Shown piece after piece: positions 6,129-52,699 of a stretch of 64,000 bases of DNA. Location: NCBI GenBank assembly GCA_028291515.1, contig JAQGHU010000077.1:1-64000 (forward strand), read 5' to 3'. A program made the translations under genes and the position numbers. Under the pieces are notes generated by a model. The model was not told where the DNA came from. It ran no database searches and saw only the letters and a list, made by a program, of their open reading frames with translations. Origin of the DNA: Schlesneria sp. GTDB lineage: Bacteria > Planctomycetota > Planctomycetia > Planctomycetales > Planctomycetaceae. Position 1 is the first letter of the stretch. The number at the start of each line of letters is the position of its first letter.

Positions 6129-7127
6129 CTACGGCTCGAGAACAATCTTGCCCCGCAGCGTCCCCTGCTTCGTGATCGTGTTCTCTTCCTGAAGCTGGTG
6201 AGCCGCCGCCGCTTCGCTCAATGGCATGACCTTGCCGATATGTGGTCGCCATCGGTTCAGTTCGTACAACGCGTTCAAACCCTCGGCCGCATGTCGCTGT
6301 TCTTCCGGCGTTCCGTTGAACATGGAAAATCCGATCAATCGCAGATCTTTCACGTAGAACGGTCCGACGGGAAGCTCGGGACGAGCCTGGCGCCCAGCCA
6401 TCAACATGATGCGACCCCGCGGTGCCATCAGGCTGATGGTCCGATCCAAGGTCGGCTCGCGTTGCGTTTCGACCCAGAGCTGGATCCCGCCGTGCGGTAG
6501 ACTGAAGGCACGCAGTTGATCGTCGATATTCGGGGCATGATAGTTCAAGGCCAAATCGGCTCCCAGCTTCTTGCAAATCGCCAGGCTTTCGTCGTTGCCA
6601 CCCGTCGTCACCACAAACGCACCCGTGGCCTTCGCCAGTTGCACCACGCACGAACCCACTCCGCCCGCTCCGCCGTTGACGAAGACAACTTCACCGGGAC
6701 GCAAATCGGCGTGCTGGAACAGACCCAAGTGAGCCGTCAATCCGACTAGAGCCCCCGCAGCCGCTTCCTGATCGGTCATCCCCGGCGGGGTGCGATACAG
6801 CCAGCGTTCATCGACGGAGGCGAACTCGGCGAAGGTTCCCTGGCGGCCGAAGAGCCCCTGGTTGCTCCCCCAGACTCGCTCACCGACACTAAATCGCTTG
6901 GCTTCGCTGCCGACCTTGACGACTGTTCCCGCCAGGTCGCATCCGATGATGTACGGAAACTTACTCGCCATCGCCACCTGTCCGGCCCGGATATAGGTGT
7001 CGATCGGGTTCACCGAAACCGCACCGACCTTGACCAAGACTTCATTAGCCCGAGGTTCCGGAGTCGGCAATTCACCATATTCAATGACCGATGGTGTGCC
7101 TGTTTCGCGAATAAACGCAGCCTTCAT
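6129..7127 (-). CDS. Zinc-independent NADPH:quinone oxidoreductase-like MDR protein
   Basis: The 332-residue protein matches the medium-chain dehydrogenase/reductase family. It has an N-terminal GroES-like half (GELPTPEPRANEVLVKVG, about 19-36) and a Rossmann half with NGGAGGVGSCVVQLAKATG at about 150-168. The structural zinc cysteines of alcohol dehydrogenases are absent, which points to the quinone oxidoreductase/zeta-crystallin branch, NADPH-dependent reduction of quinones or enones in the cytoplasm. CGGAG lies about 10 bases before the ATG. It sits between the two large membrane-protein genes with gaps of 132 and 153 bases, so it need not share their function. Confidence 0.88.
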   Translation of the reverse strand: MKAAFIRETGTPSVIEYGELPTPEPRANEVLVKVGAVSVNPIDTYIRAGQVAMASKFPYIIGCDLAGTVVKVGSEAKRFSVGERVWGSNQGLFGRQGTFAEFASVDERWLYRTPPGMTDQEAAAGALVGLTAHLGLFQHADLRPGEVVFVNGGAGGVGSCVVQLAKATGAFVVTTGGNDESLAICKKLGADLALNYHAPNIDDQLRAFSLPHGGIQLWVETQREPTLDRTISLMAPRGRIMLMAGRQARPELPVGPFYVKDLRLIGFSMFNGTPEEQRHAAEGLNALYELNRWRPHIGKVMPLSEAAAAHQLQEENTITKQGTLRGKIVLEP

Positions 7128-7280
7128 ACTTCAAACTCCGACTAAACGCGGACACCCGCGAGAACTAGCTGTGATTTGGACCCGCCGTGATTGTATCGGC
7201 GATGCTCGCCAGTCGGAATCGACGGCGGTTGATCACGCCTGACGAATTTGCTCTTGCCATTCTACACATGTCTCTGAGCT

Positions 7281-12169: not shown

Positions 12170-12441
12170 GATCAATCCGTTGAGTTTGAGGCGTCGCCGG
12201 GACGACCGAATCGCCGCCGATTCGGTGCTGCGTGCCCACTATCCACGATCCGTCCACGACTATCTACTGCACCGGCCGGTCCGGGAATCCTGTCGAGACG
12301 TTCAAATCGACGAAAGAAGCTTGCGAAGTCGACGCGGGCGCGGTTTATTCTGTAGTAGCAAGTCTTTAACGAGTCCACTGAGGCGGAAGCGTCATCCCTC
12401 AGCCGACTCCAATCATCTTTGACCTGATGGAAAGCCAGCCG

Positions 12442-15400
12442 ATGAAATCACGGTTGCTTGCAGTAGCCACCACCCTGGTGTGGCTCGCCAGTACGAATAT
12501 CTCTTTCGCCGTAGAACCCTATCTGGACTTCGTGCAGGGATTGCGTGATCGACAATATTACGATTACGCACTGATCTATCTGGACCAGATTTCCGCCAAG
12601 GACAGCACGCCTGCCGAAATCAAGCAGGTCGTCCCTTACCAGAAGGCCATCATCCTTCAGGAAAGTGCCCGGACGAACCGCTCGGCCGATCGGCAACTGG
12701 AGCAGTTGAATCAGGCCGAAGCCTATCTCGAAGAGTTCGTGAAGGCGAATCCAAATCATCCCAGCGCGGCCGACGCCAACTCGGATCGAGCCACCATTCT
12801 GCTCGACAAAGGCCGCGCGGAAGTCTTGCAGTCCAAGGCTCCTTCCAATCAGGGGACAAAACGCGACTTCCAGAACAAGGCTCGCGAAACAATCGCCAAA
12901 GCCCGCACCGTCTTCCAAACCGCCTACGACCAGCACGAAGCCAACTTCAAGAAGTTTCCGTCCTTCATTGAACAGCAGAAGGATCCACAACTGTACGCGG
13001 CTCGAGCCAAGACCGAGCAGAACCTGATCACCGCCTCGCTGATGCTGGGGCGCTGTACTTACGAGGAAGCGCAGACTTACGAGCCAGATTCGAACGACTT
13101 CAAGCAACTGCTGAGCAAAGCGGCCGAAGAGTTCGAAAAGATGCATCAGAAATATCGCAGCCAGGTCGGCGGCTTGTATGCACGAGCCTACCAGGGCAAA
13201 TGCTACGAAGAACAGCGCGACCTGCAGAAAGCGATGGGGATCTACAAGGAACTGCTGGACCATCCCGGCAACGATGCCTCCTTGTCTGCACTGAAAACAC
13301 AGACGCTCTACTTCATGTTGATCTGCCTCAACAGCAAGGAACGGCACGACTACGAGTTAGCCTCCAACCTGGCCGAAGAGTGGTTGAAGAAGCATCCCGG
13401 TGAAGCCAATTCACAATACGGATTGGGTATTCAGTGGGAACAGGCGCGAGCGTACGAGGCCCTCGGCGACAACCGCGAACTGGTCAAGATCGATCAGGAA
13501 CGCTACTGGAAACAGGCACGCAATGCGGCTAACCAGATCCAAAAACTGCAGAGTGAGTATCGGGATCTGGCGAATTCGCTGAATCAGCGGATGACGGTGA
13601 AGTTGGGCGGCAAGGAAAAGGCCCCCGCCGATTTCGACACAGCCGTCGGGTTGGCCCGTCAGGCATTCTCCACCGCGCAGGACATCAAAAAGGAACTCGA
13701 CGCCGAAGTCGCGAGAAAGGCACCTGCCGAAGATATCGCGAAGCTGAAGACCGACTGGACGAACGAACTGAATGACGCCTTGCACAACTTCGAATTGGCG
13801 TTTGCACTCGCCAAGCCAAGCGATGCCAAGAAGGATTTGCTGCAGGCTCGCTTGTTTTATGCGTACACGAATTACTGGCTGCATAGAAACTACGAAGCGG
13901 CCGTGTTGGCTCAATTCGTCGCGCGAACGGCCGACAAAGAGGACAGCACCCTCGGCTTGGATGCGGCCTACATCGCCATGGCCGCCTTCGTGCAGGCCTA
14001 CAACGAGAACAAAGCGCCGATCGATCAAAAGACAGACGATCTGAAGCTGATCGTCAAAGCGAGTAATCTGATCGCCGACCGCTGGCCCTCCAGCGATAAG
14101 GCCAGCGAAGCAGAAATGATTCTGGGACGCATGCTGAGCGTCCAGAAAAAGCCTGCTGAAGCCGCACTTCACTTCGGTAAGATCCCCGCGTCCGACCCTA
14201 AATACCCGGAAGCTCAATTGGCCGCCGGTCAGGCTTATTGGACCGCGTATCTCAGTGACAGCCGCAAGACTGGTTCAGACAAGCCGACTCCCGAAAAACT
14301 GGCTGACTGGCTGAAATCGGCTCAGGAACACTTGGCGAACGGTATCAAGAAGATGACGGAAACCACCCCTAAAGAAGGGGTTCCGCCCGCCGAGTTGATT
14401 GCCGCCAAGATGTCGCTGGCTCAAATCCTGATTAGTCAGGGTAAAGATGCAGACTCGCTTAAGCTGATGCTCGAAGATCCACACTCGGTCGTTAAGGCAG
14501 TGCAGATCGCTGATGAAGCCAATCGGCCAGAGAATGGGGTGACCAGCCGTAAGTTCGCGATGGAATCCTACAAGCTGATCCTGCGATCCTACATCGGTAT
14601 GGGCAATCTCGATAAAGCCCGCGACACCATGCAGACCTTGGAAAAAATCGCCGCTGCTGGCGGAGTCGAAGGGGGTGCCGAAGTTACTGAGTTGTACGTC
14701 GGCCTTGGCAAACTGCTGAAAGACGAACTGGAACGCCTGCGAAATAACGGCGAGGCTGAACGCTCCGATAAGCTGATGACATCGTTTGAAACGTTCCTGA
14801 ATGACATGGCCAGCCGTAAAGACGGGCAGACGTTCGGAACGCTCAGTTGGATCGGCGAAACGTATTTCGCACTCGGTGAAACCGTCACCGGAGACACCGC
14901 GAAGTCAAACTCGTTCTACGAAAAAGCCGGCATCGCATTTACCGAGATTCTGAACCGCACGAAAGCAGATCAGAACTTTGCCTCACCAGCGCAACTCTAT
15001 GGGGTCAAGCTTCGACAGGTCTACGTCCTGCGGTTGAAAAAAGAATTCGAACCCGCCGAAGGCCTGATCAACGATGTGTTGAAAGAGAACCCTAACATCC
15101 TGAAAGTCCAGACGGCTGCCGCCGAACTTTATCAAGACTGGGGTACTAGCGGTCAGGCCGACAGCGTTAACAAGCTGGTCAACGCGATCCAGGGGACGAC
15201 GAAGATCAAGGGCCTGGCTTGGGGTTGGAGTCAGATTGCCGGTAAACTGCAGAAATCGACTGAGTACCCCTCTAATCCAGTCTACCTCGAGGGCGTCTTG
15301 AACGCGCGCTACAATAGCTCGTTCTGTCGCTACAAATTCGCCCGCGAACAGACGACGAAAGACAAGCAAAAGTTTCTCGAAGAATGCCGGACCGGGCTGA

Positions 15401-15993
15401 TCGGCACCTCCATCGTGACGAAGGATATGCCCGACGAGTGGTACCAGAAATACAACGCTCTTTACGGCGATGTACTTAAAGATCTGGGTCAGCACGTGGC
15501 CGATCTACCCCGCAGCGCGGCGGATGCACCTGCGGCGGCGGCCCCGACCCAACAAACGGAAGAGCCGACTCCTGGCAAGACCGATGCTTCGAAGACTGGC
15601 GATGTTCCCGTTGCCGTGAAACCACCAGAGTCAGGTGGACTTAGCACCACGACCTGGATTCTGTTCTTCGGCTGCCTCCTGGGCGGGGCGGGTTATATCG
15701 CCTGGACGTTCATCAAGAAGCCGACGACCAAGAAAAAAGGTTACCGAGCAAAAGCGACGGCTGGACCGGCGACATTCGGCGGAATCGACGTTGGCGAGGC
15801 TCAGGTACCAGTCACCTTTGCGGCACCTCCACCAAAACCAAAACCGCGTCCGGCCGCGTCCGCCGGAACCGCGGGGACCACGGCAACAAAGCCAGCAGCC
15901 AAGCCGACGGCCAAGCCAGCCACGAAAGCCGCGGCCCCTGGAACGGCACCCCCCAAACCAAAACCGAAACCACCAGCCCCTCCTGCCGGTTAA
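12442..15993 (+). CDS. Large exported TPR protein with C-terminal membrane anchor and Lys/Pro-rich tail
   Basis: From the second ATG (12442) the protein has 1183 residues. An in-frame ATG at 12427 would add MESQP ahead of the signal peptide and is less natural. Features in order: signal peptide at about 1-24 (ends SFA-VEP), a long series of helical TPR-like repeats at about 30-1030, an Ala/Pro/Thr linker, a single membrane helix at about 1070-1090 (WILFFGCLLGGAGYIAW), then a very basic tail with KKPTTKKKG and PKPKP-type repeats. By the positive-inside rule the tail is cytoplasmic and the TPR domain is outside the inner membrane. It begins a cluster with a second TPR protein, ExbB and two ExbD genes, so it is likely a periplasmic partner or scaffold for that energised complex. 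Function unproven. Confidence 0.85.
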   Translation: MKSRLLAVATTLVWLASTNISFAVEPYLDFVQGLRDRQYYDYALIYLDQISAKDSTPAEIKQVVPYQKAIILQESARTNRSADRQLEQLNQAEAYLEEFVKANPNHPSAADANSDRATILLDKGRAEVLQSKAPSNQGTKRDFQNKARETIAKARTVFQTAYDQHEANFKKFPSFIEQQKDPQLYAARAKTEQNLITASLMLGRCTYEEAQTYEPDSNDFKQLLSKAAEEFEKMHQKYRSQVGGLYARAYQGKCYEEQRDLQKAMGIYKELLDHPGNDASLSALKTQTLYFMLICLNSKERHDYELASNLAEEWLKKHPGEANSQYGLGIQWEQARAYEALGDNRELVKIDQERYWKQARNAANQIQKLQSEYRDLANSLNQRMTVKLGGKEKAPADFDTAVGLARQAFSTAQDIKKELDAEVARKAPAEDIAKLKTDWTNELNDALHNFELAFALAKPSDAKKDLLQARLFYAYTNYWLHRNYEAAVLAQFVARTADKEDSTLGLDAAYIAMAAFVQAYNENKAPIDQKTDDLKLIVKASNLIADRWPSSDKASEAEMILGRMLSVQKKPAEAALHFGKIPASDPKYPEAQLAAGQAYWTAYLSDSRKTGSDKPTPEKLADWLKSAQEHLANGIKKMTETTPKEGVPPAELIAAKMSLAQILISQGKDADSLKLMLEDPHSVVKAVQIADEANRPENGVTSRKFAMESYKLILRSYIGMGNLDKARDTMQTLEKIAAAGGVEGGAEVTELYVGLGKLLKDELERLRNNGEAERSDKLMTSFETFLNDMASRKDGQTFGTLSWIGETYFALGETVTGDTAKSNSFYEKAGIAFTEILNRTKADQNFASPAQLYGVKLRQVYVLRLKKEFEPAEGLINDVLKENPNILKVQTAAAELYQDWGTSGQADSVNKLVNAIQGTTKIKGLAWGWSQIAGKLQKSTEYPSNPVYLEGVLNARYNSSFCRYKFAREQTTKDKQKFLEECRTGLIGTSIVTKDMPDEWYQKYNALYGDVLKDLGQHVADLPRSAADAPAAAAPTQQTEEPTPGKTDASKTGDVPVAVKPPESGGLSTTTWILFFGCLLGGAGYIAWTFIKKPTTKKKGYRAKATAGPATFGGIDVGEAQVPVTFAAPPPKPKPRPAASAGTAGTTATKPAAKPTAKPATKAAAPGTAPPKPKPKPPAPPAG

Positions 15994-16088
15994 ACATCAC
16001 TCAACCCGGCGATCGGCTGCTCGAACATCAATCAAACGACGAATTCAACAAAGTGCAATCAACCGGAAATCGGTCAGGAGTCTTGTCC

Positions 16089-17132
16089 ATGACACGTCAA
16101 GCTTGGGTCGTTGCCGCAATGGCCACGCTCGTCTGCTCTCAGGCCTTTGCCATCGATATCATCACTCGCAAAAGCGACGGCAAAAAGGTCAGCGGTCAGA
16201 TCTCGGAAATGACCCGCAATGAGATTACTCTGAAGAAGGCCGTCGGCGAACCCGATGTCGTTCAGGCCAACGACGTGGCGGCGTTTCAGTGGGATTCGGG
16301 TGGACCAGAACTGCCACTTGGTTATTCGGACGAAAACAACGGCAAGTTCGAAAGCGCGATTAAGCGCTACACGAAAGCTCGCGATGATGCCAAGAATCCC
16401 AGCGACTATCTGAAAGCGGAATTCGAGTATGTGATCGCCCGCGCCACGGCTCAGATGGCCCTGGCCGATCCTGAAAAACAGAAGACCGCAGTCGCCATGC
16501 TCGAAAAAGCCCAGAAATCACGTCCAGAACATTTTCGGTATTACGATTCGATGAACCTGCTCGGCAAGGTTCAATTGGAGATGGGCGATTTCGCCGCCGC
16601 ACGAGCCACCTTCGAACAACTCAACAAGGCCCCATGGCCCGACTACAAGTTGCTGGCGAAGATCGCTTCAGGTCGAGTTTCTGTTCGTGAAGGAAACCTC
16701 GACAAGGCTGCTCAGGAATTTGCCGAAGCCGCCGCCGCCGCCACAGATTCGCCCGCCGATCAGGCCCGGAAGTATGAAGCCATGCTGGGGCAGGCCCGGG
16801 CTCTGATCACGCAAAGCAAGTTCGAAGAGGCATTGACCACTTTGGAAACTGTCACCGAAAAGGGGCCGGCCGACGAATCCGCTTTGCAGTCCGAAGCCTT
16901 CGTTCTCCAGGGAAATGCCCTGCAGGCACTGGGTCGGGCGAAAGAAGCAGCACTGGCTTATCTGCACGTCGATATTTTGTTCCCCCGTGAAAGCGCGATG
17001 CATGCCGAGGCGCTGTACAACCTCAGCAAGACTTGGAAGCTGGTTCAGCAAGAAGATCGCAGCTCTGCCGCAGGGGGAAAACTGGTTCAACTCTACCCGA
17101 ATAGTGCCTGGAGAAAGAAACTGGCACAATAA
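16089..17132 (+). CDS. Exported TPR protein upstream of ExbB
   Basis: The 347-residue protein starts at the ATG at 16089, which has AGGAG eight bases upstream and begins the signal peptide MTRQAWVVAAMATLVCSQAFA. A GTG twelve codons earlier is possible but lies before the ribosome site. After export, residues about 22-65 form a small beta-rich domain (SDGKKVSGQISEMTRNEITL), followed by helical TPR repeats at about 90-345. It lies 95 bases after the large TPR gene and 141 bases before ExbB, all on one strand. The most likely role is a periplasmic adaptor of the ExbB-ExbD complex. I know of no functional assignment for this type. Confidence 0.85.
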   Translation: MTRQAWVVAAMATLVCSQAFAIDIITRKSDGKKVSGQISEMTRNEITLKKAVGEPDVVQANDVAAFQWDSGGPELPLGYSDENNGKFESAIKRYTKARDDAKNPSDYLKAEFEYVIARATAQMALADPEKQKTAVAMLEKAQKSRPEHFRYYDSMNLLGKVQLEMGDFAAARATFEQLNKAPWPDYKLLAKIASGRVSVREGNLDKAAQEFAEAAAAATDSPADQARKYEAMLGQARALITQSKFEEALTTLETVTEKGPADESALQSEAFVLQGNALQALGRAKEAALAYLHVDILFPRESAMHAEALYNLSKTWKLVQQEDRSSAAGGKLVQLYPNSAWRKKLAQ

Positions 17133-17273: not shown

Positions 17274-18128
17274 TTGAAAGGGATTGAATTGAATCGCTCG
17301 AACGGATTCGGCAGTGTCTGGGGTGCGGTATTGGCCGCGTTCTTTTGTCTCTTCCTGGTTGGCGGCACAGAGTCGATTAGCTTCGCTCAAGAGGACGAGA
17401 CTGTCACGCCCGCCCCCACTTTTGACAGGATGCCTGAATCCCGCCACCACAGGGAATCATTTCTGGCATCCATGATCCACGCGTCGGGGATCTTTGGGTT
17501 TTTGATCATGCTGGTGTCGGTCGTGATGATCGCCATCATCATGATTCTCGGCCTGCAACTGCGTCGCGACAACTACCTGCCCCCCTCGCTCCTTGAACAG
17601 TTCGAGCAGCGGTTGCAGGCGAGAGACTATCAGGGGGCCTACGACGCGGCGAAGGACAGTGAATCTTTTATTGGCCGTATTCTGGCTGCCGGGATGTCAC
17701 GCTGGCCCCGCTTTGAAGAGGCCGAATCGCGTATGCAGCAAGTTGGCGAAGACGAAACGATGGCCATGGAACACAAGATCGGTTACCTGGCCCTGATCGG
17801 CTCGATCGCCCCGATGCTGGGACTGCTCGGTACCGTCCAGGGGATGGTGTACAGCTTTCAGGTTATTGCGAACTCAAGCACCTCGCCAAAGCCAGCCGAT
17901 CTTGCTGACGGCATCGCGACGGCGTTGTTCACGACCTTGGAAGGTCTGGTCGTCGCGATTCCGGCGATTGTCTTCTATGCCCTCTTCAAGAACCGACTGG
18001 ACCGCTTCCTGATGGAATGCGGATTCGTCGCCGACAACTTGTTGAAAGATTTCCAAAGCGTGGGCCAGTCGGCCGCCAAGGCTGGTGGTGCCGCAGCAAC
18101 GGGTGTTCACGCCGCGCGCCAGGAATAG
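17274..18128 (+). CDS. MotA/TolQ/ExbB-family proton channel subunit
   Basis: The 284-residue protein belongs to the pentameric ExbB/TolQ family, which with ExbD/TolR turns proton flow into mechanical work across the envelope. It has an N-terminal hydrophobic segment resembling a signal peptide (about 12-39), a first membrane helix at about 70-95, and the conserved channel region with LALIGSIAPMLGLLGTVQGM near 170-190 and ALFTTLEGLVVAIPAIVFYA near 221-240. The two Thr-containing helices match the family pore. The start is TTG at 17274, preceded by AAGGACGG; no ATG would keep the N-terminal hydrophobic segment. It is followed by two ExbD genes. Confidence 0.93.
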   Translation: MKGIELNRSNGFGSVWGAVLAAFFCLFLVGGTESISFAQEDETVTPAPTFDRMPESRHHRESFLASMIHASGIFGFLIMLVSVVMIAIIMILGLQLRRDNYLPPSLLEQFEQRLQARDYQGAYDAAKDSESFIGRILAAGMSRWPRFEEAESRMQQVGEDETMAMEHKIGYLALIGSIAPMLGLLGTVQGMVYSFQVIANSSTSPKPADLADGIATALFTTLEGLVVAIPAIVFYALFKNRLDRFLMECGFVADNLLKDFQSVGQSAAKAGGAAATGVHAARQE

Positions 18129-18254: not shown

Positions 18255-18734
18255 ATGAAGACCCGCAAGATCGAACTGGGGTTCACTGGCCCCAATATGA
18301 TACCGATGATCGATATCGTATTTCAGCTCGTGATGTTCTTCATGATCGCCATCACTTTTGAAAACTCGAAGGCCGATGAACGTGTCAAGCTTCCACGCGA
18401 CATGCTCGCCAAGCCGCCCGAAGTGAAGCCCGAACACGAACTGGTTCTGAACTTCGGATACCAACGCGACAAGAACGGAAACAAGATCAATGCCGTTCCA
18501 ACCGTGTTCTATAACGATCGCGATTTCGAAGTGGGAGAACTGACGCGAGTTCTTGACGCAGAGAAACGCGTACTGGAAGAAACTCAGGGAAGGGATGTCA
18601 TCGAGAAGGTGACAGTGCAGATTCGTGCGGACTCCGAAGTCGCCAATGGGCTCGTGCAGCAGCTCATCAAGAAATGTCAGGACAGCGGCTTCACGAAGGT
18701 GTCAGTCGTCGACCGCGGCCGAAAGGGTCTGTAA
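18255..18734 (+). CDS. ExbD/TolR-family protein 1 (Asp present)
   Basis: This 159-residue ExbD-type subunit has a short cytoplasmic N-terminus, one membrane helix and a periplasmic domain. The helix reads NMIPMIDIVFQLVMFFMIAI; D20 (codon 18312-18314) is at the position of the proton-carrying Asp of ExbD/TolR (family knowledge). The periplasmic part ends with a typical small alpha/beta domain carrying KVTVQIRADSEVANGLVQQL and VSVVDRGRKG. GAGGATG lies about 5 bases before the ATG. Its stop overlaps the next start by one base (TAATG), so the two ExbD proteins are translationally coupled and probably made in similar amounts. Confidence 0.94.
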   Translation: MKTRKIELGFTGPNMIPMIDIVFQLVMFFMIAITFENSKADERVKLPRDMLAKPPEVKPEHELVLNFGYQRDKNGNKINAVPTVFYNDRDFEVGELTRVLDAEKRVLEETQGRDVIEKVTVQIRADSEVANGLVQQLIKKCQDSGFTKVSVVDRGRKGL

Positions 18735-19231
18735 TGAAGTTCGCGAACAGCACGGTGCCGACGAAAATCGTCATTCCAATGGCGCCGATGATCAATGTCA
18801 TCTTCCTGTTGCTGATCTTCTCGATGCTCAGCATGAAGATCGTTTCGCCGGAAGCGAACTTCAATATCAACCTGCCAGTCACCGCCCCTTCGCACGCGCA
18901 GTCCCATGCCAGCCTGCCTGTTATCAAAGTGGGCCTGGAGTCAGACCGGGATGGCAACCTGACTCAATTGACACTGGGGGGCACCAACCTTGGCAACGAC
19001 GAAGCCGCTTTCGACCGACTGAACAAGGAACTCCTCTTGCTCATCGGACGCCCGGGACACCCGCACACCAAGGATATCGAAGTCGAACTCGATGCCGACT
19101 ACGAGTGCCAGTACCAGTATGTCGCGAAGGCGATCTCACTCTGCACAGGCAAGTCCGATCCACAAACTCAGCAAGGGGCCCGGTATGTCGAAAAGATCAA
19201 GTTCGCGCCGCCGCATAAACCCAAGAGCTGA
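18734..19231 (+). CDS. ExbD/TolR-family protein 2 with Asn at the proton-relay position
   Basis: The 165-residue protein starts with the ATG overlapping the stop of ExbD1; an upstream extension in the same frame is an artefact of that overlap. The architecture matches ExbD: helix at about 12-35 ([20 protein letters not shown]) and a periplasmic domain to residue 165. Where ExbD1 has D20, this protein has N21 (codon AAT, 18794-18796), so the usual proton-carrying Asp is missing. The periplasmic domain also holds two cysteines (CQYQY and SLC). It probably pairs with ExbD1 as a heterodimer in which only one subunit carries protons. ExbD-family identity is clear; the working model is inference. 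Confidence 0.9.
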
Positions 19232-19767
19232 TCGATCCACTCGTCCTGTTTTCGCGCTCGTTTTGTCCCAATTTGTCCTGGGGTGTCACTCACCAAGCCC
19301 AACCCAAGGCGACGCCTTGGCCCGTCCGACCAACCTGCGCACCCGCCCGCCGAGAAATCCAAGACACCCCGTTTTCCCTGCCATGGACTGACAAATCCTG
19401 CCAAATCGTGAGGAAAGCTCTCGCAAGGGCTGGCAGCCGCACTCCGAATAATCGGCAGGAATTGATGGAACTGGGCCCGCTGGTCGTGTCGAGCGGCACG
19501 CAAACTGAGCCACAAAGCATTTCGCGCCAAGCAACATTCACAGCGTGTCTTTCCGACTACTCCCTATCCCCTACCCCCAATTCCCTTCAGCCAAACAACT
19601 TACCGCAACCCCGTCGCACACCAAGCCTTGATTCGCGCCGACCTCGCGATACCACTCGTCCGGCAATCTCTGCCGGACCTGCCATTGACGTTTTTTGCCG
19701 ATTCACGCATAGTTTCGGCCCTTCCTCGTTCCACAAGCCTTTTGCCGACAGACAGAAACCGCGACCG
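19232..19767. other. Intergenic region between exbD2 and lysS
   Basis: No convincing gene. A reading frame continuous with lysS covers 19273-19767, but its predicted protein is low-complexity and unlike any synthetase N-terminus. At 19304-19320 a 17-base palindrome (CCAAGGCG-A-CGCCTTGG) may mark the end of the exbD transcript, although no T-run follows. The last 90 bases hold a candidate promoter for lysS, listed separately. Confidence 0.5.
19685..19713 (+). promoter_or_regulatory. Candidate sigma70-type promoter for lysS
   Basis: TTGACG at 19685-19690, a 17-base spacer, then CATAGT at 19708-19713. The -35 box matches five of six consensus bases and the -10 box four of six. It would give a leader of about 50 bases before the lysS ATG. 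Confidence 0.4.
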
Positions 19768-21234
19768 ATGTCCGAGACGCCCGATCGTTTAGAAGCCGCC
19801 CGACTGGAAAAACTCGCCAAGATTGAGGCGTTAGGTCTCGATCCCTGGGGTCAGCGTTTTGACGGCCACATCGCCATTGAAAAAGCCCGCGATCTCTGTC
19901 CTGCTGAATCGGGGTCTGACGGCGAAACGGTTCGCGTCGCCGGACGCATTCTGCGTTGGAACGACAAGGGAAAGCTGCACTTCATTCACATCCAGGACCA
20001 CACGGGTCGCATCCAGTTGATGCTGTCTCGCAAGGACGCCTCGGATGAAATGTGGGCGCTGCTCGAATGCCTCGATCTGGGTGACTTGATCGGTGTCGAC
20101 GGCCGCACGCGGATGTCCAATTCCGGCGAAAAGACCATCGCAGTCACCGGATTGACGATCCTCTGCAAGTCGCTCGCTCAGCCACCCGAAAAGTTCCACG
20201 GCATCCAGGACAAGGAAGCCCTGCTTCGCCAGCGATACGTCGACCTGATCTACTCCGAAGGCGTCCTCGAGCGGATGCTCAAGCGATTGCGCATCCTCGA
20301 TTCGATCCGCCAGACGCTGCGCGGTGAAAGCTTCTTCGAAGTGGAAACACCGGTGTTGCACGCCATCGCCGGTGGTGCGGCTGCTCGTCCGTTCAAGACA
20401 CATCACAACGCCCTCGACATTCCGCTGTTCCTGCGGATTGCGCTCGAACTGCATCTCAAGCGATTGATGGTCGGCGGGATCGAACGCGTCTACGAAATCG
20501 GCCGCGTCTTCCGTAACGAAGGTGTCGACGGCACTCATAACCCTGAATTCACGATGATCGAACTCTATCAGGCGTATGGCGACTACCATGCGATGATGGA
20601 CCTGGCCGAGAAGATCATCTGCAACGCCGCGATCGCCGCGAACGGAACGGCTGTGCTGCCGTGGGGCGAGAAGACCGTCAATTTCAATCCGCCCTTCCAG
20701 CGAGCGAAGTACGGCGACTTGTTCCGCGAACATGCTGGCTGTGACATGCAGGACGCCGAAGCGGTCTCTGCCGTGGCGAAGAAGCTGCACATCGAAACGG
20801 CCGGGCGTCATCCGGACGTGATCGTGAACGATGTGTTCGAGGTGACAGTCGAAGACAAGCTGGTGGGCCCAGTCTTCGTGTACGACTACCCTTCATCCAT
20901 GTGTCCACTGACCAAGCGCAAGCGATCCGATCCCAGTATCGCCGAGCGATTCGAATTGTTCGTCGACGGGATGGAACTCGCGAACGCCTACACGGAACTA
21001 AACGACCCGCGCCTGCAGGAAGAACTGTTCCGCACGCAGTTGGACGGCTTGGCCGAAGAGGATTCGATGGCCAAGATGGATCACGACTTCGTCCGAGCCC
21101 TTAAGGTGGGGATGCCACCCGCGGGCGGAATGGGGATCGGAATCGATCGCCTGGTCATGCTGCTGACCAACACCACAAGTATCCGCGACGTGATTTTCTT
21201 CCCGTTGCTGAAGCCGGAACAACCGACGACGTAG
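19768..21234 (+). CDS. lysS: Lysyl-tRNA synthetase, class II
   Basis: The 488-residue product has the normal length for class II LysRS, which charges tRNA-Lys with lysine in the cytoplasm. An N-terminal OB-fold anticodon-binding domain at about 30-140 contains [21 protein letters not shown]. The catalytic core follows, with motif 2 around [18 protein letters not shown] and motif 3 as [15 protein letters not shown] near the C-terminus. I start at the ATG at 19768 (MSETPDRL); the upstream in-frame extension is not protein-like. A candidate promoter lies 55-83 bases upstream. The next gene starts 29 bases downstream with a strong ribosome site. Confidence 0.96.
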
Positions 21235-21263
21235 AGTGACGCAGAATCGCCAAGGAGGGCGAT

Positions 21264-22358
21264 GTGACGACTGCAATCATAACGACGATTCGACAACAGC
21301 TTCGCAAGCGTTGGGTGCGCGGGATAGCGTGCCTTGGTTTGATGCTGGTGACGTACGTCGCGAGCGCGGGTCAGATCAGCGGGTTAGCGTTCAGTCCATT
21401 CGTCAACAGAACGTTTCCGTTGGATCATCGACTGCAATGTGGAGTCATACGATTCTACGAGCCAGTATTCATCGTGGCCGGGTCGGACTGGTGCCCCCGT
21501 TTGATTCCTTCCTTTATCTCTTTTTGCATGGGAACCCAAAGGAAGGCCGTCGCCATTGAACTGAATCAGATGGCTCGCGACGCAATAGGAGAAGCGCGAC
21601 TTGAGCGAGCGCGCCAGCTAGCGATGTTCTCCGAGAAGCTACGTGTGCAGTACGGAATATTTGATGATCGTCCTGAGCTCATCATAGCCGAAGTGAAACA
21701 TCGCTTTGCAGACCAAGTTCCTCTGCAATCATTTGTGATGACGCCCGATCCTATTGTCATCCGTTGGAACGAGCTGACGTGTGAAGATTGGAAGCGCATT
21801 GACGGGGAGATTCTCCAAGCTCAGGGTGTAACGATCCTATACCCAGACGACATCGATTGGTTAGTGCCGGAATCCAAAGACGACGATGGCGATTATGTTG
21901 TATGCGATCCTCTGCAAGTTAGTTGCATTCCCGAAGATGATGTGACCGCGACGCCTGTCACGACGTACCACAACCTTGGCAACACGAAGTTGCAGTGCTT
22001 TGAAGACAGGCCGGATCTGATCCTGACCGACTTGGATAGTGTTCAATCCGTCGAACTCCCTGCGCAACGACCGTTTAGTGTGGGTGTGATCGATCTCCGC
22101 GACGAGCAAGACCTTTCTGACGCGTCACCACGTACTCGAGATCAAGCCCCCGTCTATACATTCAGAGTCGCTCATCCTGAACTGCTTCTCGATGAATCAC
22201 ACATAGTACAACTGCAATGTTCCACTCACGCATCCGATGAAGACGAGAATGCACGAATCTTCGCGGATGTACGCAATCGTATTTTCTGTCAAAAAGAATT
22301 CCCGCGACGCGAAGACCAATTGAACGTGTGGAGTTTTTCGCTGGGCTTCAATCGATAA
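21264..22358 (+). CDS. Orphan exported protein of unknown function
   Basis: The 364-residue protein starts at a GTG with AAGGAGGG a few bases upstream. An N-terminal hydrophobic stretch at about 18-36 (GIACLGLMLVTYVASAG) looks like a signal peptide. The remainder is soluble and unlike any family I recognise: an alpha-helical patch at about 90-125 (Arg/Glu-rich), then beta-rich sequence with clusters of acidic residues and five or six cysteines. Codon choice differs from neighbours (ATA, TTA and GTA are used more, and GC appears lower), which may mean recent acquisition or fast evolution. It sits 32 bases before the LolC-like gene and could be co-transcribed with it. Confidence 0.7.
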   Translation: MTTAIITTIRQQLRKRWVRGIACLGLMLVTYVASAGQISGLAFSPFVNRTFPLDHRLQCGVIRFYEPVFIVAGSDWCPRLIPSFISFCMGTQRKAVAIELNQMARDAIGEARLERARQLAMFSEKLRVQYGIFDDRPELIIAEVKHRFADQVPLQSFVMTPDPIVIRWNELTCEDWKRIDGEILQAQGVTILYPDDIDWLVPESKDDDGDYVVCDPLQVSCIPEDDVTATPVTTYHNLGNTKLQCFEDRPDLILTDLDSVQSVELPAQRPFSVGVIDLRDEQDLSDASPRTRDQAPVYTFRVAHPELLLDESHIVQLQCSTHASDEDENARIFADVRNRIFCQKEFPRREDQLNVWSFSLGFNR

Positions 22359-22390
22359 CCGAACTCACCTTCAACGCCAAGGATTGGCAC

Positions 22391-23944
22391 ATGTACAAAC
22401 TACTTCTCTGTCAGCGATATCTGCGTTCTCGGTACATCGCTCTGGCGAGCATCATCAGCGTCACGCTGGGTGTCGCGACGATGATCGTCGTCAATGCTGT
22501 GATGGCCGGGTTCAGCAGTGAGATGCGGTTGCGGATCCAGGGGATCCTGTCCGACATCATCATTGAAACTCGCAGCTATGACGGCGAGGCGGATGCCGAA
22601 CTGCATAAGCAGATGATCGAGCGACTGATCGGCCCTTACGTTGCCGGTGTGACTTCCACAGTGGAAGTCTATGGGATGCTGAGCTTCGAATATGGCGGCC
22701 AGTACATCCATCATCCGGTCACGCTGATCGGGATCGACCCCGGCAGCAAGTCCGAAGTCGGTCCGCTGATGGACTACCTGCAAAGCTATCACAAACAGGA
22801 CAACGGACCTGACAGTGCTAAAGCCGAACGAACCAAGGACCACAAGCCAGACTGGTCGTTGACCCCGGGTGCCAATGACTATCGTCAACACATCGCCGCC
22901 TTGGCTCGCGACAAGGCGATCTTCCTGAAAGAGCTCAAGCAACAACGTCACGGTGGTGCCGAACAGGGTGGCGAAGCACCTGCCGCCCCCAATAGTGAAG
23001 ATCCCTTCAATGGGATGGAACGTGAAGAAGGTAATGCCGTCGTGGCCGAGGCCAATTTGGGCGAGTTGCAAACGGGACGCCTGTACGTCGGCAGCAACCT
23101 GATCAGCTTTCCTCACATGGACGAGGCGACCAATCAGACTCGCACGATTTACATGGTTCGCCCCGGCAATGATGTGAAGGTCAGCACAGTCACTGCCGGA
23201 ACTCCCAAGCCAGCCTACTTCGATGCCACAGTCGTCGATGTCTTCAAGAGTGGAATGAGCGAGTACGATTCGAACCTAGTCTTCTGCAATCTGGAATATC
23301 TGCAGCACGTTCGCAAGATGGTCACGCCGAATCCAGATGGTACGGAATCGCGCGCGATCACTTCGGTGCAGATCAAGTTGAAGGATTACCACGACTCCGA
23401 CAAAGTGATGAAGATCCTGCGGAACGAATTCCCCGCCGATCGCTACACGGTCCGAACATGGGAGCAAAAGCAGGGTCCACTGCTGGCGGCGGTCGACGTT
23501 GAATCATCGATCCTGAATATCCTGCTGTTCCTGATTATCGCGGTGGCGGGATTTGGGATCCTCGCGATCTTCTTCATGATCGTCGTCGAAAAGACTCGCG
23601 ATATTGGTATTCTGAAGGCTCTCGGAGCCAGTTCAACTGGTGTGATGTCGATCTTCCTGAGCTACGGTCTGTCGCTGGGAATCGTCGGCAGCGGAGTCGG
23701 TGTGATGGCGGGTCTGCTGTTCGTCTACTACATCAACCAGATTGAAGCCTTCATCACGTTTGTGACCGGCCGAAAGGTCTTCGACGAAAAGATCTACTAT
23801 TTCAAAACGATTCCGACTCATATCGATGCCTTAACGATCTTCTGGGTCGCAGTGGGAGCGATCACGATTGCGGTTCTCGCCAGCGTCCTGCCAGCTCGTC
23901 GAGCCGCCCGGTTGCAGCCTGTCCGCGCCTTGCGATACGAATAG
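22391..23944 (+). CDS. LolC/LolE/MacB-type ABC transporter permease
   Basis: The 517-residue membrane protein has the four-helix layout of lipoprotein-export permeases: one N-terminal helix (ALASIISVTLGVATMIVVNA), a large extracytoplasmic domain (about 45-370), then three C-terminal helices, ending in the classic LPARRAARLQPVRALRYE. It is longer than E. coli LolC or LolE because the periplasmic domain has an insertion at about 130-230, rich in charged and Gln/Gly residues. With the ATPase downstream it likely extracts lipoproteins from the inner membrane; as a single permease gene it may form a homodimer. The start is ATG 22391; the longer upstream frame overlaps the preceding gene. Confidence 0.9.
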   Translation: MYKLLLCQRYLRSRYIALASIISVTLGVATMIVVNAVMAGFSSEMRLRIQGILSDIIIETRSYDGEADAELHKQMIERLIGPYVAGVTSTVEVYGMLSFEYGGQYIHHPVTLIGIDPGSKSEVGPLMDYLQSYHKQDNGPDSAKAERTKDHKPDWSLTPGANDYRQHIAALARDKAIFLKELKQQRHGGAEQGGEAPAAPNSEDPFNGMEREEGNAVVAEANLGELQTGRLYVGSNLISFPHMDEATNQTRTIYMVRPGNDVKVSTVTAGTPKPAYFDATVVDVFKSGMSEYDSNLVFCNLEYLQHVRKMVTPNPDGTESRAITSVQIKLKDYHDSDKVMKILRNEFPADRYTVRTWEQKQGPLLAAVDVESSILNILLFLIIAVAGFGILAIFFMIVVEKTRDIGILKALGASSTGVMSIFLSYGLSLGIVGSGVGVMAGLLFVYYINQIEAFITFVTGRKVFDEKIYYFKTIPTHIDALTIFWVAVGAITIAVLASVLPARRAARLQPVRALRYE

Positions 23945-24012
23945 CGTTCATTTCCCGTCACCGAGTTCGATAGGCTCACGCGTGATCTGATCACGAACCA
24001 GGAGTGGCAGCC

Positions 24013-24786
24013 ATGCCGACGGTTACCAGCAAGTTCACCAGTCCGAAGTCCGCGTCGCTCCGAGAGACATTCCCCATGCCAGAACCGCAAATCGCCGCGT
24101 TTTCTGTCGAGAAAGCTTACCGCAAAGGGGATCACCTGGTCCCTGTCTTACACGGCGTTGACGTGTCGGTTCGCAAAGGTGAGTTCCTCTCGATCGTGGG
24201 CCAGTCGGGATCAGGAAAAAGCACCCTGCTCCATTTGCTGGGGCTACTGGATGCACCGGACATTGGCGAAGTGCAACTTGACGGCCAGCGAATTGATGAC
24301 CTGCCATCGCGAACTCGGGACGAACTTCGTAACCGCGTGTTCGGGTTCGTCTTTCAGTTCTACCACTTGCTGCCCGAACTGAGCTTGATGGAGAACGTAC
24401 TCAGCCCGCTGATGATCCGGCATTCGATCTGGGGTTATTGGAAGCGTCGACGCGAATACCAGGACCGAGCCCGCGAGATGATTGATCGCGTTGGACTCGG
24501 TCACCGCCTGACTCATAAACCTTCGGAATTGTCAGGCGGCGAGATGCAACGAGCCGCCATCGCCCGATCGCTGGTCGCGCATCCCGAAATCCTGCTGGCA
24601 GACGAACCGACTGGCAACCTGGACGCCCGGACGGGGCGAGAGATCATTGACCTGCTCTGCAAGTTGAATGAGCAGGAACAGTTGACTATTATCATGGTGA
24701 CGCATGATCAGGCGATCGCGGCGCAAGCCCATCGCACTGTCAAACTGTGCGAAGGTCGGATCGTCCCAATGTCGGATGCCGCCTGA
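24013..24786 (+). CDS. lolD: LolD-type ABC transporter ATP-binding protein
   Basis: The 257-residue ATPase has Walker A GQSGSGKST (about 63-71), signature LSGGEMQRAAIARSL, Walker B ILLADEPTGNLD and the switch His in MVTHDQ. These are the features of the LolD/MacB ATPase family that powers lipoprotein release or efflux through the neighbouring permease. The ATG at 24013 has AGGAG eight bases upstream. A GTG at 24004 lies inside that site, and an ATG at 24076 (MPEPQIAAF) would give the family's usual short N-terminus, so the true start is uncertain by 21 residues. It is followed by a clear terminator at 24936-24968. Confidence 0.92.
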   Translation: MPTVTSKFTSPKSASLRETFPMPEPQIAAFSVEKAYRKGDHLVPVLHGVDVSVRKGEFLSIVGQSGSGKSTLLHLLGLLDAPDIGEVQLDGQRIDDLPSRTRDELRNRVFGFVFQFYHLLPELSLMENVLSPLMIRHSIWGYWKRRREYQDRAREMIDRVGLGHRLTHKPSELSGGEMQRAAIARSLVAHPEILLADEPTGNLDARTGREIIDLLCKLNEQEQLTIIMVTHDQAIAAQAHRTVKLCEGRIVPMSDAA

Positions 24787-24935
24787 GAATAGGGCGACAG
24801 CGGCACGCGGCGTCTGGCGAACCTCGACCCACTTTACGGTGTCAATTTAGTCGCCAGGCTTCCTGCTGGCCGATCTTTGTGAATAATTGCAGTGAGTCGA
24901 ACGACCCTTGGTGGCGAGTTCCAAGCGATGAAGTA

Positions 24936-24968
24936 GAAGCCCGGCTTTAGAAAAGGCCGGGCTTCTTT
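24936..24968 (+). terminator. Intrinsic terminator after lolD
   Basis: GAAGCCCGGC at 24936-24945 pairs with GCCGGGCTTC at 24956-24965, followed by TTT. The ten-base GC-rich stem has a short A-rich loop. It ends the lolC-lolD transcript just ahead of the aminotransferase gene. Confidence 0.85.
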
Positions 24969-24984
24969 GTCAGGGTGATGCGAA

Positions 24985-25848
24985 ATGGGATTGAAGATTT
25001 ATCTCGCCGGTAAGATCGTCGATGAAGCCGATGCCAAGATCAGCGTGTTCGATCACGGTCTGCTGTACGGCGATGGAGTGTTCGAAGGGATCCGCATTTA
25101 CGGCGGCAAGGTCTTCCTGCACCAGCAACATATCGATCGGCTGTACGAAAGCGCTAAGGCGATCCGCCTGACCATTCCGCTGAAGCCGGCAGAAATGATT
25201 GCTGCCGTCGAAGCGACAGTCAAAGCCAATAATCTGACCGATGGTTATGTGCGCCTGGTGGTGACTCGTGGTGCGGGCAGCCTGGGTCTGGATATCCGCA
25301 AGACCAGCAATCCGCAGGTCATCATCATCGCCGATACGATCTCGCTGTACCCCCCTGAGACCTATACCAGGGGAATGCACCTGGTCACGGCGAGCACGAT
25401 CCGCAATCATTCGGCGGCACTCAGCCCGCGCATTAAATCATTGAACTACCTGAACAACATCATGGCTCGCATCGAAGGAACCGATGCCGGCATGGTTGAA
25501 GCCCTGATGCTGAATCACAAAGGTGAAGTGGCCGAGTGTACCGGCGATAACATCTTCATCGTGAAGCATGGAGTGCTGCAAACACCTTCGCGCGACGCCG
25601 GCATTCTGGAAGGGATCACTCGCAACGCCGTCATAGACCTGGCACGCGAAGCCGGATACCGAGTCGAAGAATGCTCGCTGACGCGTCACGACCTGTACGT
25701 CGCCGACGAAATGTTCCTGACCGGAACTGCTGCGGAAGTGGTCGCCGTCGTGTCATTGGACGGACGTTCGATCGGCAACGGCGAACCTGGTCCGATCACG
25801 CGCAATTTGCTTGCACTCTTTCAGAAGCTCACTCGTTCGGGTGCGTAG
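24985..25848 (+). CDS. ilvE: Class IV branched-chain amino acid aminotransferase
   Basis: The 287-residue fold-type IV PLP enzyme most likely transfers amino groups between branched-chain 2-oxo acids and glutamate, in valine, leucine and isoleucine metabolism. The N-terminal region VFDHGLLYGDGVFEGIRIYGG fits the family. The PLP lysine is K151 in RIKSLNYLNNIMARIEG, and the phosphate-binding region GDNIFIV and GITRNAVIDLAREAG follow. The close relatives D-amino acid aminotransferase and ADC lyase are less likely given the YGDGVFEGIR pattern. AGGGTGAT lies about 5 bases before the ATG. The gene lies between two terminators and is probably its own transcript. Confidence 0.9.
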   Translation: MGLKIYLAGKIVDEADAKISVFDHGLLYGDGVFEGIRIYGGKVFLHQQHIDRLYESAKAIRLTIPLKPAEMIAAVEATVKANNLTDGYVRLVVTRGAGSLGLDIRKTSNPQVIIIADTISLYPPETYTRGMHLVTASTIRNHSAALSPRIKSLNYLNNIMARIEGTDAGMVEALMLNHKGEVAECTGDNIFIVKHGVLQTPSRDAGILEGITRNAVIDLAREAGYRVEECSLTRHDLYVADEMFLTGTAAEVVAVVSLDGRSIGNGEPGPITRNLLALFQKLTRSGA

Positions 25849-25862
25849 TCCGCAAAGTAGAA

Positions 25863-25884
25863 GGCATACTCCGTATGCCGTTTT
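25863..25884 (+). terminator. Bidirectional terminator between ilvE and a small membrane gene
   Basis: The perfect stem GGCATAC-TCC-GTATGCC at 25863-25879 is followed by GTTTT on the plus strand and by TTCTACTTT on the minus strand. It lies between the stop of the aminotransferase (25848) and the stop of the minus-strand 80-codon gene (25907), so it can serve both. Confidence 0.75.
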
Positions 25885-25906
25885 GTGTTGCTGAAGAGTC
25901 ATTCGC

Positions 25907-26149
25907 CTACCGAGGTCGCGTATCGCCGATCTCGGATGATTTCTCTTCGCGCATTTCGTAATGATGCAGATTCCCTGCCTCATTCGACAGAGTCTGAATG
26001 CGACCCATTGCCAGGACGATGACGAGGAAGAATCCCAAGACGACCATCCCGCCCACCAAGTAGCCTACGCCGCGATCGATCCCACTTTTCTTCAGGTAGA
26101 CGGCTTCGTCGGTGTCTGACAGGTTGTCCAACATGATCGCCAGGCTCAT
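25907..26149 (-). CDS. Small single-span membrane protein
   Basis: The 80-residue product has a soluble N-terminus (about 1-28), one strong membrane helix at about 29-50 (YLVGGMVVLGFFLVIVLAMG) and a charged C-terminus ending KSSEIGDTRPR. I do not recognise the family. Support for a real gene: the helix is well placed, the frame is intact, and a shared bidirectional terminator stands at its 3-prime end. Against: no strong ribosome site precedes the ATG, and an ATG five codons further in is possible. The surrounding genes give no clear hint of role. Confidence 0.55.
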   Translation of the reverse strand: MSLAIMLDNLSDTDEAVYLKKSGIDRGVGYLVGGMVVLGFFLVIVLAMGRIQTLSNEAGNLHHYEMREEKSSEIGDTRPR

Positions 26150-26495
26150 TTCAAAATGGCTCGGTCACTCCGAGGCGCGGGCACGAGATTAGAATAACAT
26201 AGCTTGCGAATACGCAACTATCGGGCCACGCACCCGCGCGGTCCGTGGATGACCGCAAGTCGCTTCTATCAGTATGGGCTGCACCGATTGCACCACCTTT
26301 ACGGCCCTCTCACATCCAAGCCTCCGTGAAGCGATGTTGACATCTTGATTCGGGTGCGTTGTGATTTTGAAACAAGGTGCGAGGTTAAGGGGACGGCGTC
26401 CGGATGAGAATGGGCCCTATTTCACATCGCGGTATTAGCTATGCTGCATGCGTGAACGAACCCCGACATCCCCATACGCGGCTTGCGGAGAGATC
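26150..26495. other. Divergent intergenic region
   Basis: About 346 bases separate the small minus-strand gene from the plus-strand YHS gene. Stretches rich in A and T near 26186-26220 (for example TAGAAT at 26190-26195) may belong to a promoter, but no well-spaced -35 box is visible. No gene, RNA or large repeat is seen. Confidence 0.4.
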
Positions 26496-27236
26496 ATGCC
26501 TGACAGCTTTCGATTGCTCGCAACTTGGATGGTAGTCACCATCGGCATCCTCGCCGCAGGCTCATACTTCGTCATCCAAGCGGAAGAACCCCAGCCGAAG
26601 CCGGCATCCAAAGCCGCCACGATTGACGCCCTGCGCGAATTCAACGGGCTCGTCGGCAGTTGGCGTGGGATCGGACAGGTCAAACGTGGCTCATCACAAG
26701 GGGCCTGGCAGGAAAAGGCCGAGTTCGTCTGGGAACTGAAGCCGAAGAGTACCGGCATTCGCATCAACGTCGAAGACGGTAAGGAATGGAAATCGGCCCT
26801 GCTGAATTTCGATGAGGCTACTAAGCAACTCACGCTCACGGCCAAGCTACTCGACGATTCCACACGGACGCATCACGGCAAGTTTGAAGATAAACGCCTC
26901 GTGATGGAAGGAGTCGACGACAAGAAAGAGGTCCATCGGCTGACGCTGACCGTACTAAACGAGAATCGCTTACTGATCCTGTTTGAGAAGCGACCTGAGC
27001 AGCAGTCCTTTTTCACGCGGACGGGTGAAGTCGGATACCAGCGTCAGGGAACAAAGATCGCGGCCGTTAACGGAACGGGGCCGATCTGCGTGGTGACTGG
27101 CGGAGCTGGAACGATCCCCGTCACGCACAAGGGAAAGACGTACTACGTCTGCTGCACCGGCTGTCGCGATGCCTTCAACGATGATCCTGAAGGAACCATT
27201 GCCGCTTATGAAAAGCAGAAGACCGAATCGAAATAG
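26496..27236 (+). CDS. Membrane-anchored or exported protein with C-terminal YHS-type metal domain
   Basis: The 246-residue protein starts at the ATG at 26496, with GGAG about 6 bases upstream; a frame extension of 16 codons lacks such a site. A hydrophobic N-terminal segment at about 5-26 is a signal peptide or anchor. Residues about 40-170 form a beta-rich domain (FNGLVGSWRGIGQVKRG) that resembles lipocalin-like DUF1579-type folds. The C-terminal 50 residues carry GPICVVTGG and YYVCCTGCRDAF, the Cys pattern of YHS/TRASH domains that bind copper or other soft metals. A periplasmic metal-sensing or metal-carrying role is possible but unproven. Confidence 0.75.
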   Translation: MPDSFRLLATWMVVTIGILAAGSYFVIQAEEPQPKPASKAATIDALREFNGLVGSWRGIGQVKRGSSQGAWQEKAEFVWELKPKSTGIRINVEDGKEWKSALLNFDEATKQLTLTAKLLDDSTRTHHGKFEDKRLVMEGVDDKKEVHRLTLTVLNENRLLILFEKRPEQQSFFTRTGEVGYQRQGTKIAAVNGTGPICVVTGGAGTIPVTHKGKTYYVCCTGCRDAFNDDPEGTIAAYEKQKTESK

Positions 27237-27359
27237 GCCAAGCTTTCTGACCGGATTGACCGACTTCAGGTGCCCGTGTCCTCGATCAAAGACACGGCCA
27301 TGTCGAGGACTCCAAGTCCGTGGCACCCGATGGCCGCGATTCCGAATTCGACCGGTTCG

Positions 27360-27388
27360 GTGACGCTACGTCATCCGCTGGCTATAAT
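27360..27388 (+). promoter_or_regulatory. Candidate promoter for argG
   Basis: A perfect -10 box TATAAT at 27383-27388 lies 17 bases after GTGACG (27360-27365), which matches the -35 consensus TTGACA at four of six positions. Predicted leader length to the argG ATG is about 70 bases. Confidence 0.55.
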
Positions 27389-27463
27389 CTTGGCCCCTGC
27401 CCACTCAATCGGCCGTGATGTTCGGCCGTGAAGGTTCACTCTTGTTCTCGATTGGAATCGTTC

Positions 27464-28678
<1,215 letters not shown>

Positions 28679-52381: not shown

Positions 52382-52699
52382 TGTTACTCGCACTGCCCCT
52401 GTCGAGTCACGAGGCGAATTCTTCGTACGCCGCCGCCGCTTGCCGCATCGATCGCGGAGATCAGCCTGGCCAATTCCATGGGCGAGTTGCTCCGAGCTTG
52501 TGAGTTGAGTGGGCGAATGTCAGATCAGAAAGTGAACGGGACGAACCGCGCAGATGGAGTATATCGAGTGACCACGTTGGTCGGTATCAAACGCTGCGTC
52601 GTCACTCCAGTCGCATAAACGCAGAAGTGGATCCATCTTCAACAGTCCGCGGACGAAATATGAATTTCGCAAGAACGATTAGTAAACCCTCCACCGGCT
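52382..52699. other. Intergenic region upstream of the FHA-propeller gene
   Basis: 318 bases between two minus-strand genes. No gene or recognised RNA is seen. A short A/T-rich patch (52660-52690) could hold a promoter for the gene reading leftward, but I cannot point to well-spaced boxes. Confidence 0.4.

Follow-up and report, generated by a model that had tools for sequence, protein, structure and literature searches.

An ExbBD-type motor operon of Schlesneria in which one of two ExbDs carries Asn at the proton site

The 5:2 motors of the ExbBD/TolQR/MotAB type (PF01618 plus PF02472) are recognized by conserved pore threonines in the channel subunit and by an Asp in each axle subunit, and the rotary model, in the available parts of PMC9389320 and PMC12215075, lets the two Asp alternate at one proton per 36 degrees. 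The locus analysed here lies in a stretch of 64,000 nucleotides from Schlesneria sp. (the window) and encodes one ExbB and two different ExbDs, of which the first has the Asp and the second has Asn, raising the question of how such a half-neutral pair arose and what the motor might still do. In the portions available of the further sources, ExbD(D25N) is described as inactive (PMC11658791), the two TolR Asp are said to exchange protonation states (PMC12905483), and one model assumes rotation only when both Asp are protonated (PMC10659934). A literature search, which covered little of the subscription literature and saw sources in part, found no report of a natural Asp-less ExbD or TolR, nor of a heterodimeric ExbD. 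The genes follow the order TPR1-TPR2-ExbB-ExbD1-ExbD2 in the raw sequence of the window, all on the plus strand, with the following features:

12427..15993, plus strand: TPR1, 1188 aa, with a signal-like N-terminus, TPR repeats, one late membrane helix and a basic Pro/Ala/Lys-rich tail (topology by eye)
16089..17132, plus strand: TPR2, 347 aa from the ATG at 16089; a longer form from a GTG start at 16053 is possible
17274..18128, plus strand: ExbB/TolQ-like channel subunit, TTG start as listed; PF01618 102.2 bits, cut-off 22.9
17832..17834, plus strand: ExbB pore Thr, ORF residue 192, aligned to the Thr of GTVWG in ExbB 7ajq/6ye4
17931..17936, plus strand: ExbB Thr pair, ORF residues 225-226, of which 226 is aligned to the second conserved Thr of ExbB 7ajq/6ye4
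18255..18734, plus strand: ExbD1, 159 aa, proton-site Asp retained; PF02472 57.3 bits, curated cut-off 25.4
18312..18314, plus strand: ExbD1 D20, codon GAT in the raw sequence, motif MIDIVF
18734..19231, plus strand: ExbD2, 165 aa; PF02472 46.2 bits, curated cut-off 25.4
18794..18796, plus strand: ExbD2 N21, codon AAT, motif MINVIF; orthologues have Asp at the same site

The positions and codons that the initial annotation gave for D20 and N21, as well as the one-base overlap between the two genes, are exact in the raw sequence, where the last A of the ExbD1 stop codon TAA (18732-18734) is the first base of the ExbD2 ATG. Its claim that ExbD2 is without the proton-site Asp and ExbD1 has it is borne out by the orthologue alignments, in which D20 and N21 sit in the Asp column of their respective families. 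A sequencing or assembly error at N21 is unlikely, because AAT is also present in the assemblies of two other species (G142 and G141); the G142 ExbD2, 93% identical to that of the window species (G000), likewise has AAT at the site.

Both ExbDs score above the curated PF02472 cut-off. The AlphaFold2 model of ExbD2 (mean pLDDT 71) has a membrane helix at residues 17-37, which holds N21, followed by a mixed ExbD-like periplasmic domain, and its best PDB match is the ExbD periplasmic domain 8vgc_A, with a TM-score by target of 0.76 and a weak E of 0.018; the ExbD2 alignment, used as query against PDB chains, gave no match at 0.01. The window ExbB aligns with ExbB chains from solved structures, and the role of the pore Thr in the channel subunit is taken from the available part of PMC12215075. 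The NCBIfam scores stay below cut-off for tolR (24.5 bits for ExbD1 and 24.0 for ExbD2 against 127.3) and for ExbD_1 (22.9 for ExbD1 against 152.95), and no operon protein matched the TolQ, TolR, ExbB or ExbD equivalogs of NCBIfam at cut-off. Judged by these profiles, the motor is related to those of Ton and Tol and is assigned to neither.

Compared with the ExbBD/TolQR/MotAB motors, the complex shares an ExbB-like channel with both conserved pore threonines (Thr 192 and 226) and axle subunits of the ExbD family, whereas it has two different ExbDs instead of one and Asn at the proton site of one of them (D20 is present, N21 replaces the Asp). The TPR-tolQ-tolR-tolR-vWA cluster of PVC bacteria is also similar: it too occurs in planctomycetes and places TPR genes ahead of a single ExbB and a pair of unlike ExbDs. 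The window operon may differ from it in the vWA gene, none being seen by eye downstream of ExbD2 in the ORF list for 19231-28000, where the next ORF resembles lysyl-tRNA synthetase (named by eye); the available part of the paper on that cluster makes no mention of Asn in the tolR-like pair. The AglR-AglQ-AglS gliding motor of Myxococcus, likened here by description and not by sequence, likewise combines a channel subunit with two distinct MotB-like proteins, whose association as hetero- or homodimers the available text of PMC9389320 leaves open; nothing in the present analysis points to gliding.

TPR2 matches TPR_16 in Pfam at 48.3 bits against a cut-off of 32.7, and TPR1 has three TPR profile matches, each under cut-off. 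The initial annotation had named the two upstream TPR proteins as candidate periplasmic partners, and the TPR genes do occur together with the motor genes: both genes are present in 15 of 15 genomes tested (the best TPR1 matches in the other 14 having 42-94% identity), and they are unlinked to the motor genes in G008 and G009. Elsewhere in the window, where three proteins besides the five of the operon were scanned for domains, an ORF at 52700-53593 on the minus strand, 33 kb away from the motor genes, combines an N-terminal membrane helix, a Pro/Gly-rich linker and a C-terminal domain in a layout that is TonB-like by eye, with no Pfam match at 0.01, and a 1209 aa protein at 48764-52393 on the minus strand carries an FHA domain, a PQQ/BamB-like propeller and, as judged by eye, an intervening membrane helix.

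At E 1e-8, ExbD2 was matched in 149 of the 170 genomes of the order (21 had no match), and the survey covers 138 of them, the other 11 being left out. The 151 ExbD2 copies in these 138 genomes have D (142), N (3), A (2), G (2) or R (2) at the site, although the two copies scored R (G139_2 and G147_2) have no membrane helix, so that the site is absent there. Among 136 ExbD1 genes, 132 have D, two A and one V, and the last, from G147, is truncated and was scored as a gap that cannot be judged. The initial annotation had asked whether Asn is conserved in ExbD2 orthologues, naming a prevalence of Asp as the sign of a local mutation, and whether ExbD1 always keeps its Asp. Asn is not conserved, and the mutation proves local, although not the accident of one strain, for two species share it and a third seems to have gained it independently; the constancy of the ExbD1 Asp holds for all genes except those with A or V and the truncated one. 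By comparison of the orthologues, Asn at position 21 of ExbD2 is a local, derived state.

A degenerate DNA pattern of the motif with Asn matched in 4 of the 170 genomes of the order, three matches being ExbD2 of G000, G141 and G142 and the fourth a non-ExbD frame. Asn as a wider planctomycete variant was not found by a looser pattern in 392 genomes of the phylum: it matched in 22, one of them the window, and none of the 19 read among the other 21 (L249 and L250 were left out of frame reading) was ExbD-like by eye. Such patterns miss variants: in their Asp version they would recover 97 of 142 ExbD2 and 116 of 136 ExbD1 locus labels, four of the ExbD2 labels being second loci of a genome.

In the 130 genomes with all three motor genes on one locus, the ExbD1/ExbD2 state is D/D in 123 and D/N in three, the rest being A/A, A/G and V/G in one genome each and a truncated ExbD1 with D in one. 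The D/N genomes (G000, G142 and G141) all belong to one genus and keep the ExbD1 Asp, and loss of Asp from ExbD1 alone was seen in 0 of 130 genomes, with the truncated G147 ExbD1 not judgeable. These counts speak for a tentative reading, the main rival of the one preferred below, in which an ExbD1-ExbD2 heterodimer sits in an ExbB pentamer, the Asn is permanently neutral and each proton yields a single stroke at the ExbD1 Asp; the axle might then ratchet or oscillate rather than alternate. Its other supports are the intact ExbB threonines (192 and 225-226 are unchanged in six of six Asp-loss genomes) and the one-base overlap, which suits equal production of the two ExbDs, while the published models, as far as their available text goes, alternate two Asp, and one needs both protonated.

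General Asp loss in the ExbDs of this organism is ruled out. Its genome has nine PF02472 matches, namely the two of this operon, six other membrane-anchored ExbDs, all of which keep Asp, and one with only the ExbD-like end. In the six genomes G140, G141, G142, G007, G008 and G009, 31 of 44 PF02472 matches lie outside this system, and the 29 that were read all have Asp; of the remaining two, one in G141 was unread and the other, in G142, matches in part only and has no helix. Two regular-expression matches with Ala (L269 and L271) lie inside other, by eye ExbB-like, ORFs and were excluded from the count. As far as the matches were read, Asp loss is confined to this system. ORFs of 326-352 aa with an ExbD-like periplasmic end only and no axle helix were seen at L009 622-1641 (own genome, contig C63), L160 (G139) and L124 (G147), that of the own genome scoring 24.2 bits, slightly below the Pfam cut-off.

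Three genomes in two lineages, G140 and the pair G008/G009, are Asp-less in both ExbDs (A/A, A/G and V/G) and keep the ExbB pore threonines:

L083 (G140), plus strand: ExbD1 ORF 1794-2372 and ExbD2 ORF 2311-2877, no Asp at either site
L179 (G008), plus strand: ExbD ORFs 7104-7598 and 7394-8152, no Asp at either site
L180 (G009), reverse strand: two ExbDs, no Asp at either site

Motor and TPR genes lie apart in G008 and G009, and the 14.0 and 13.0 kb read at the TPR genes contain no Asp-bearing copy. That relatives without any Asp keep these genes under selection is the main reason for preferring, at a probability of roughly 0.5, a derived weakening of the proton drive in a complex that would still be needed for another job. 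It also tells against a motor running on one remaining site, for in these relatives the genes persist without any. It speaks against a weakened drive that the D/N species have kept both the ExbD1 Asp and the ExbB threonines, neither of which an undriven motor would need.

In a concatenated tree of 19 genomes, G000 and G142 are placed with G139 and G147, both of which have D in ExbD2 (support 70 for G139 with G147), and G141 is placed with G143, G145 and G146, all D/D (support 100). The tree of the synthetase-like protein, named by eye, again puts G141 with G143, G145 and G146 (support 100), and has G000 and G142 beside G139 and then G147. With Asp kept in ExbD2 of G139 and G147, the nearest relatives of the window species, the simplest account is two separate ExbD2 changes from D to N, one in the G000 and G142 lineage and the other in G141. 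A twofold origin of Asn would suit a motor with one working site. Since the ExbD1 Asp was never lost alone, there is at most a hint that ExbD2 loses its Asp first, and this order is non-significant (0.25, with only two single-loss events), which weighs on the other side. A further point against a weakened drive is that the replacement in each D/N lineage is Asn, which of all residues comes closest to a protonated Asp; yet Asn is also one outcome of a single base change from GAT or GAC, which can give A, E, G, H, V and Y as well.

Selection on the genes after the loss was estimated by Nei-Gojobori counting, with a binomial P that treats changes as independent. Between G000 and G142, dN/dS is 0.107 for ExbB, 0.240 for ExbD1 and 0.236 for ExbD2 (P against neutrality 2e-16, 3e-4 and 2e-4), and the 24 helix codons of ExbD1 as well as those of ExbD2 show 0 amino-acid changes. 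The corresponding dN/dS values are 0.098 for TPR1, 0.028 for TPR2 and 0.040 for the synthetase-like protein. Between G008 and G009, for codons aligned by tblastn to the window, it is 0.011 for ExbB (205 codons), where the very low value reflects the aligned core, 0.141 for ExbD1 (132 codons) and 0.072 for ExbD2 (156 codons); an earlier run on whole stop-to-stop frames, non-coding and overlapping stretches included, gave 0.131, 0.145 and 0.238, all well below 1. The Asp-less estimate comes from this pair, G140 having no Asp-less sister to compare. ExbB, ExbD1 and ExbD2 are still under purifying selection after Asp loss, and such ratios tell that the proteins are needed and say nothing of what for. 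Purifying selection and unchanged helices in G000 and G142 are also what a motor with one live site would call for.

The ExbD value of 0.24 for G000 and G142 is the highest among seven pairs (0.06-0.14 in D/D pairs with a defined value), though these two are the least diverged pair in the ExbDs and low divergence itself can raise dN/dS; constraint on their ExbDs looks eased yet present. This excess, the unlinking of the motor from the TPR genes in G008 and G009, and the conserved columns broken in the window proteins might be taken as decay, with the motor becoming non-functional in this lineage and Asn an early step. The window species breaks 1 of 45 conserved columns in ExbB, 4 of 31 in ExbD1 and 5 of 25 in ExbD2 (N21 included), and as many or more are broken by 29, 2 and 2 of the 123 D/D genomes, respectively. 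Decay is nonetheless improbable, as no frame is interrupted, each of the three genes departs significantly from neutrality, and the Asn is common to two species with a dS of 0.15-0.50 between them. Conserved residues just ahead of the ExbD1 helix are changed as well (D17N and T19I in ORF numbering), which argues against an ExbD1 that still delivers a stroke per proton.

Branch lengths were fitted to a fixed topology of 19 genomes. On the stem of G000 and G142, the motor proteins are long-branched (ExbB 0.33, ExbD1 0.36 and ExbD2 0.32 versus 0.08-0.22 on the G139 and G147 tips) and the TPR proteins ordinary (TPR1 0.28 and TPR2 0.22 versus 0.22-0.41). The stem of G008 and G009 has 0.94, 2.0 and 1.08 for ExbB, ExbD1 and ExbD2, versus 0.27, 0.29 and 0.13 on the tip of the D/D relative G007, and 0.36 and 0.24 for the TPR proteins versus 0.27 and 0.32. 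Among 29 branches (6 of 35, including the G000 and G142 tips, were left out as too short), the motor-to-TPR rate ratio is 4.85 on the G008 and G009 stem (rank 1), 1.89 for G141 (rank 3) and 1.51 on the G000 and G142 stem (rank 4), and the chance of these three all falling in the top four is 0.001 in a post hoc test. In a separate run with partial TPR2 data, G140 has a ratio of 1.81, and seven tips without known Asp loss range over 0.42-0.73, with G136 at 2.35. Motor-specific acceleration accompanies Asp loss and is not exclusive to it, because G136 (L082), with an ExbD2 motif of MLDIAL, keeps both Asp at a ratio of 2.45 (rank 2).

The rates of ExbD1 and ExbD2 covary at 0.48, which falls to 0.13 once the Asp-loss branches are removed, so that covariation is no independent sign of their pairing. 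Tandem duplicates of ExbD2 stand beside a single ExbB and ExbD1 in 9 of the 130 loci (L035, L071, L073, L084, L087, L105, L115, L118 and L154), and the copy number is therefore not fixed at 1:1. Both observations would fit an axle that is not mixed at all, with ExbD1 forming normally working D/D homodimers and ExbD2 residing in separate complexes or serving as a non-motor subunit, where loss of its Asp would be cheap. Such an arrangement seems rather unlikely, given that Asp in 142 of 151 copies implies that ExbD2 normally needs its proton site; the order ExbB>ExbD1>ExbD2, the same in 130 of 130 genomes, is consistent with a heterodimer and does not itself demand one. At L087 (G062), the third ExbD-like ORF, on the reverse strand, is a tandem second ExbD2 with Ala, and the neighbouring ExbD1 and ExbD2 both have Asp.

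In sum, the relatives commonly have Asp in both ExbDs of the conserved TPR1-TPR2-ExbB-ExbD1-ExbD2 system, and in the window species and its sister G142 the ExbD2 Asp gave way to Asn on a branch along which the three motor proteins, unlike the TPR proteins, evolved fast. Under the preferred reading of a weakened proton drive, and by analogy with the Ton/Tol/Mot family, ExbD1 and ExbD2 would form one mixed axle in the ExbB pentamer, which would leave a single site able to take up and release a proton. Because published rotary models need two Asp to alternate, such a D/N axle would be expected to stall or idle, with proton-driven turning weak or absent. The complex may then be kept mainly for a job that can do without full power, perhaps that of tethering the TPR proteins to the inner membrane and the wall.

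A bolder claim, which is possible though doubtful, is that within one bacterial family an ExbBD-type complex has repeatedly shed proton sites (one site in two lineages and both in two others) with its genes still under selection, and that the D/N form of the window represents a stable natural motor working with just one ion site. If true, this would break the rule of two alternating sites in 5:2 motors and show a proton-independent role of ExbBD. Half-neutral and fully neutral versions occur naturally in genomes whose relatives keep both sites, and a comparison within one family of complexes in the D/D, D/N and Asp-less states would offer a direct test of the need for alternation and of a possible second job.
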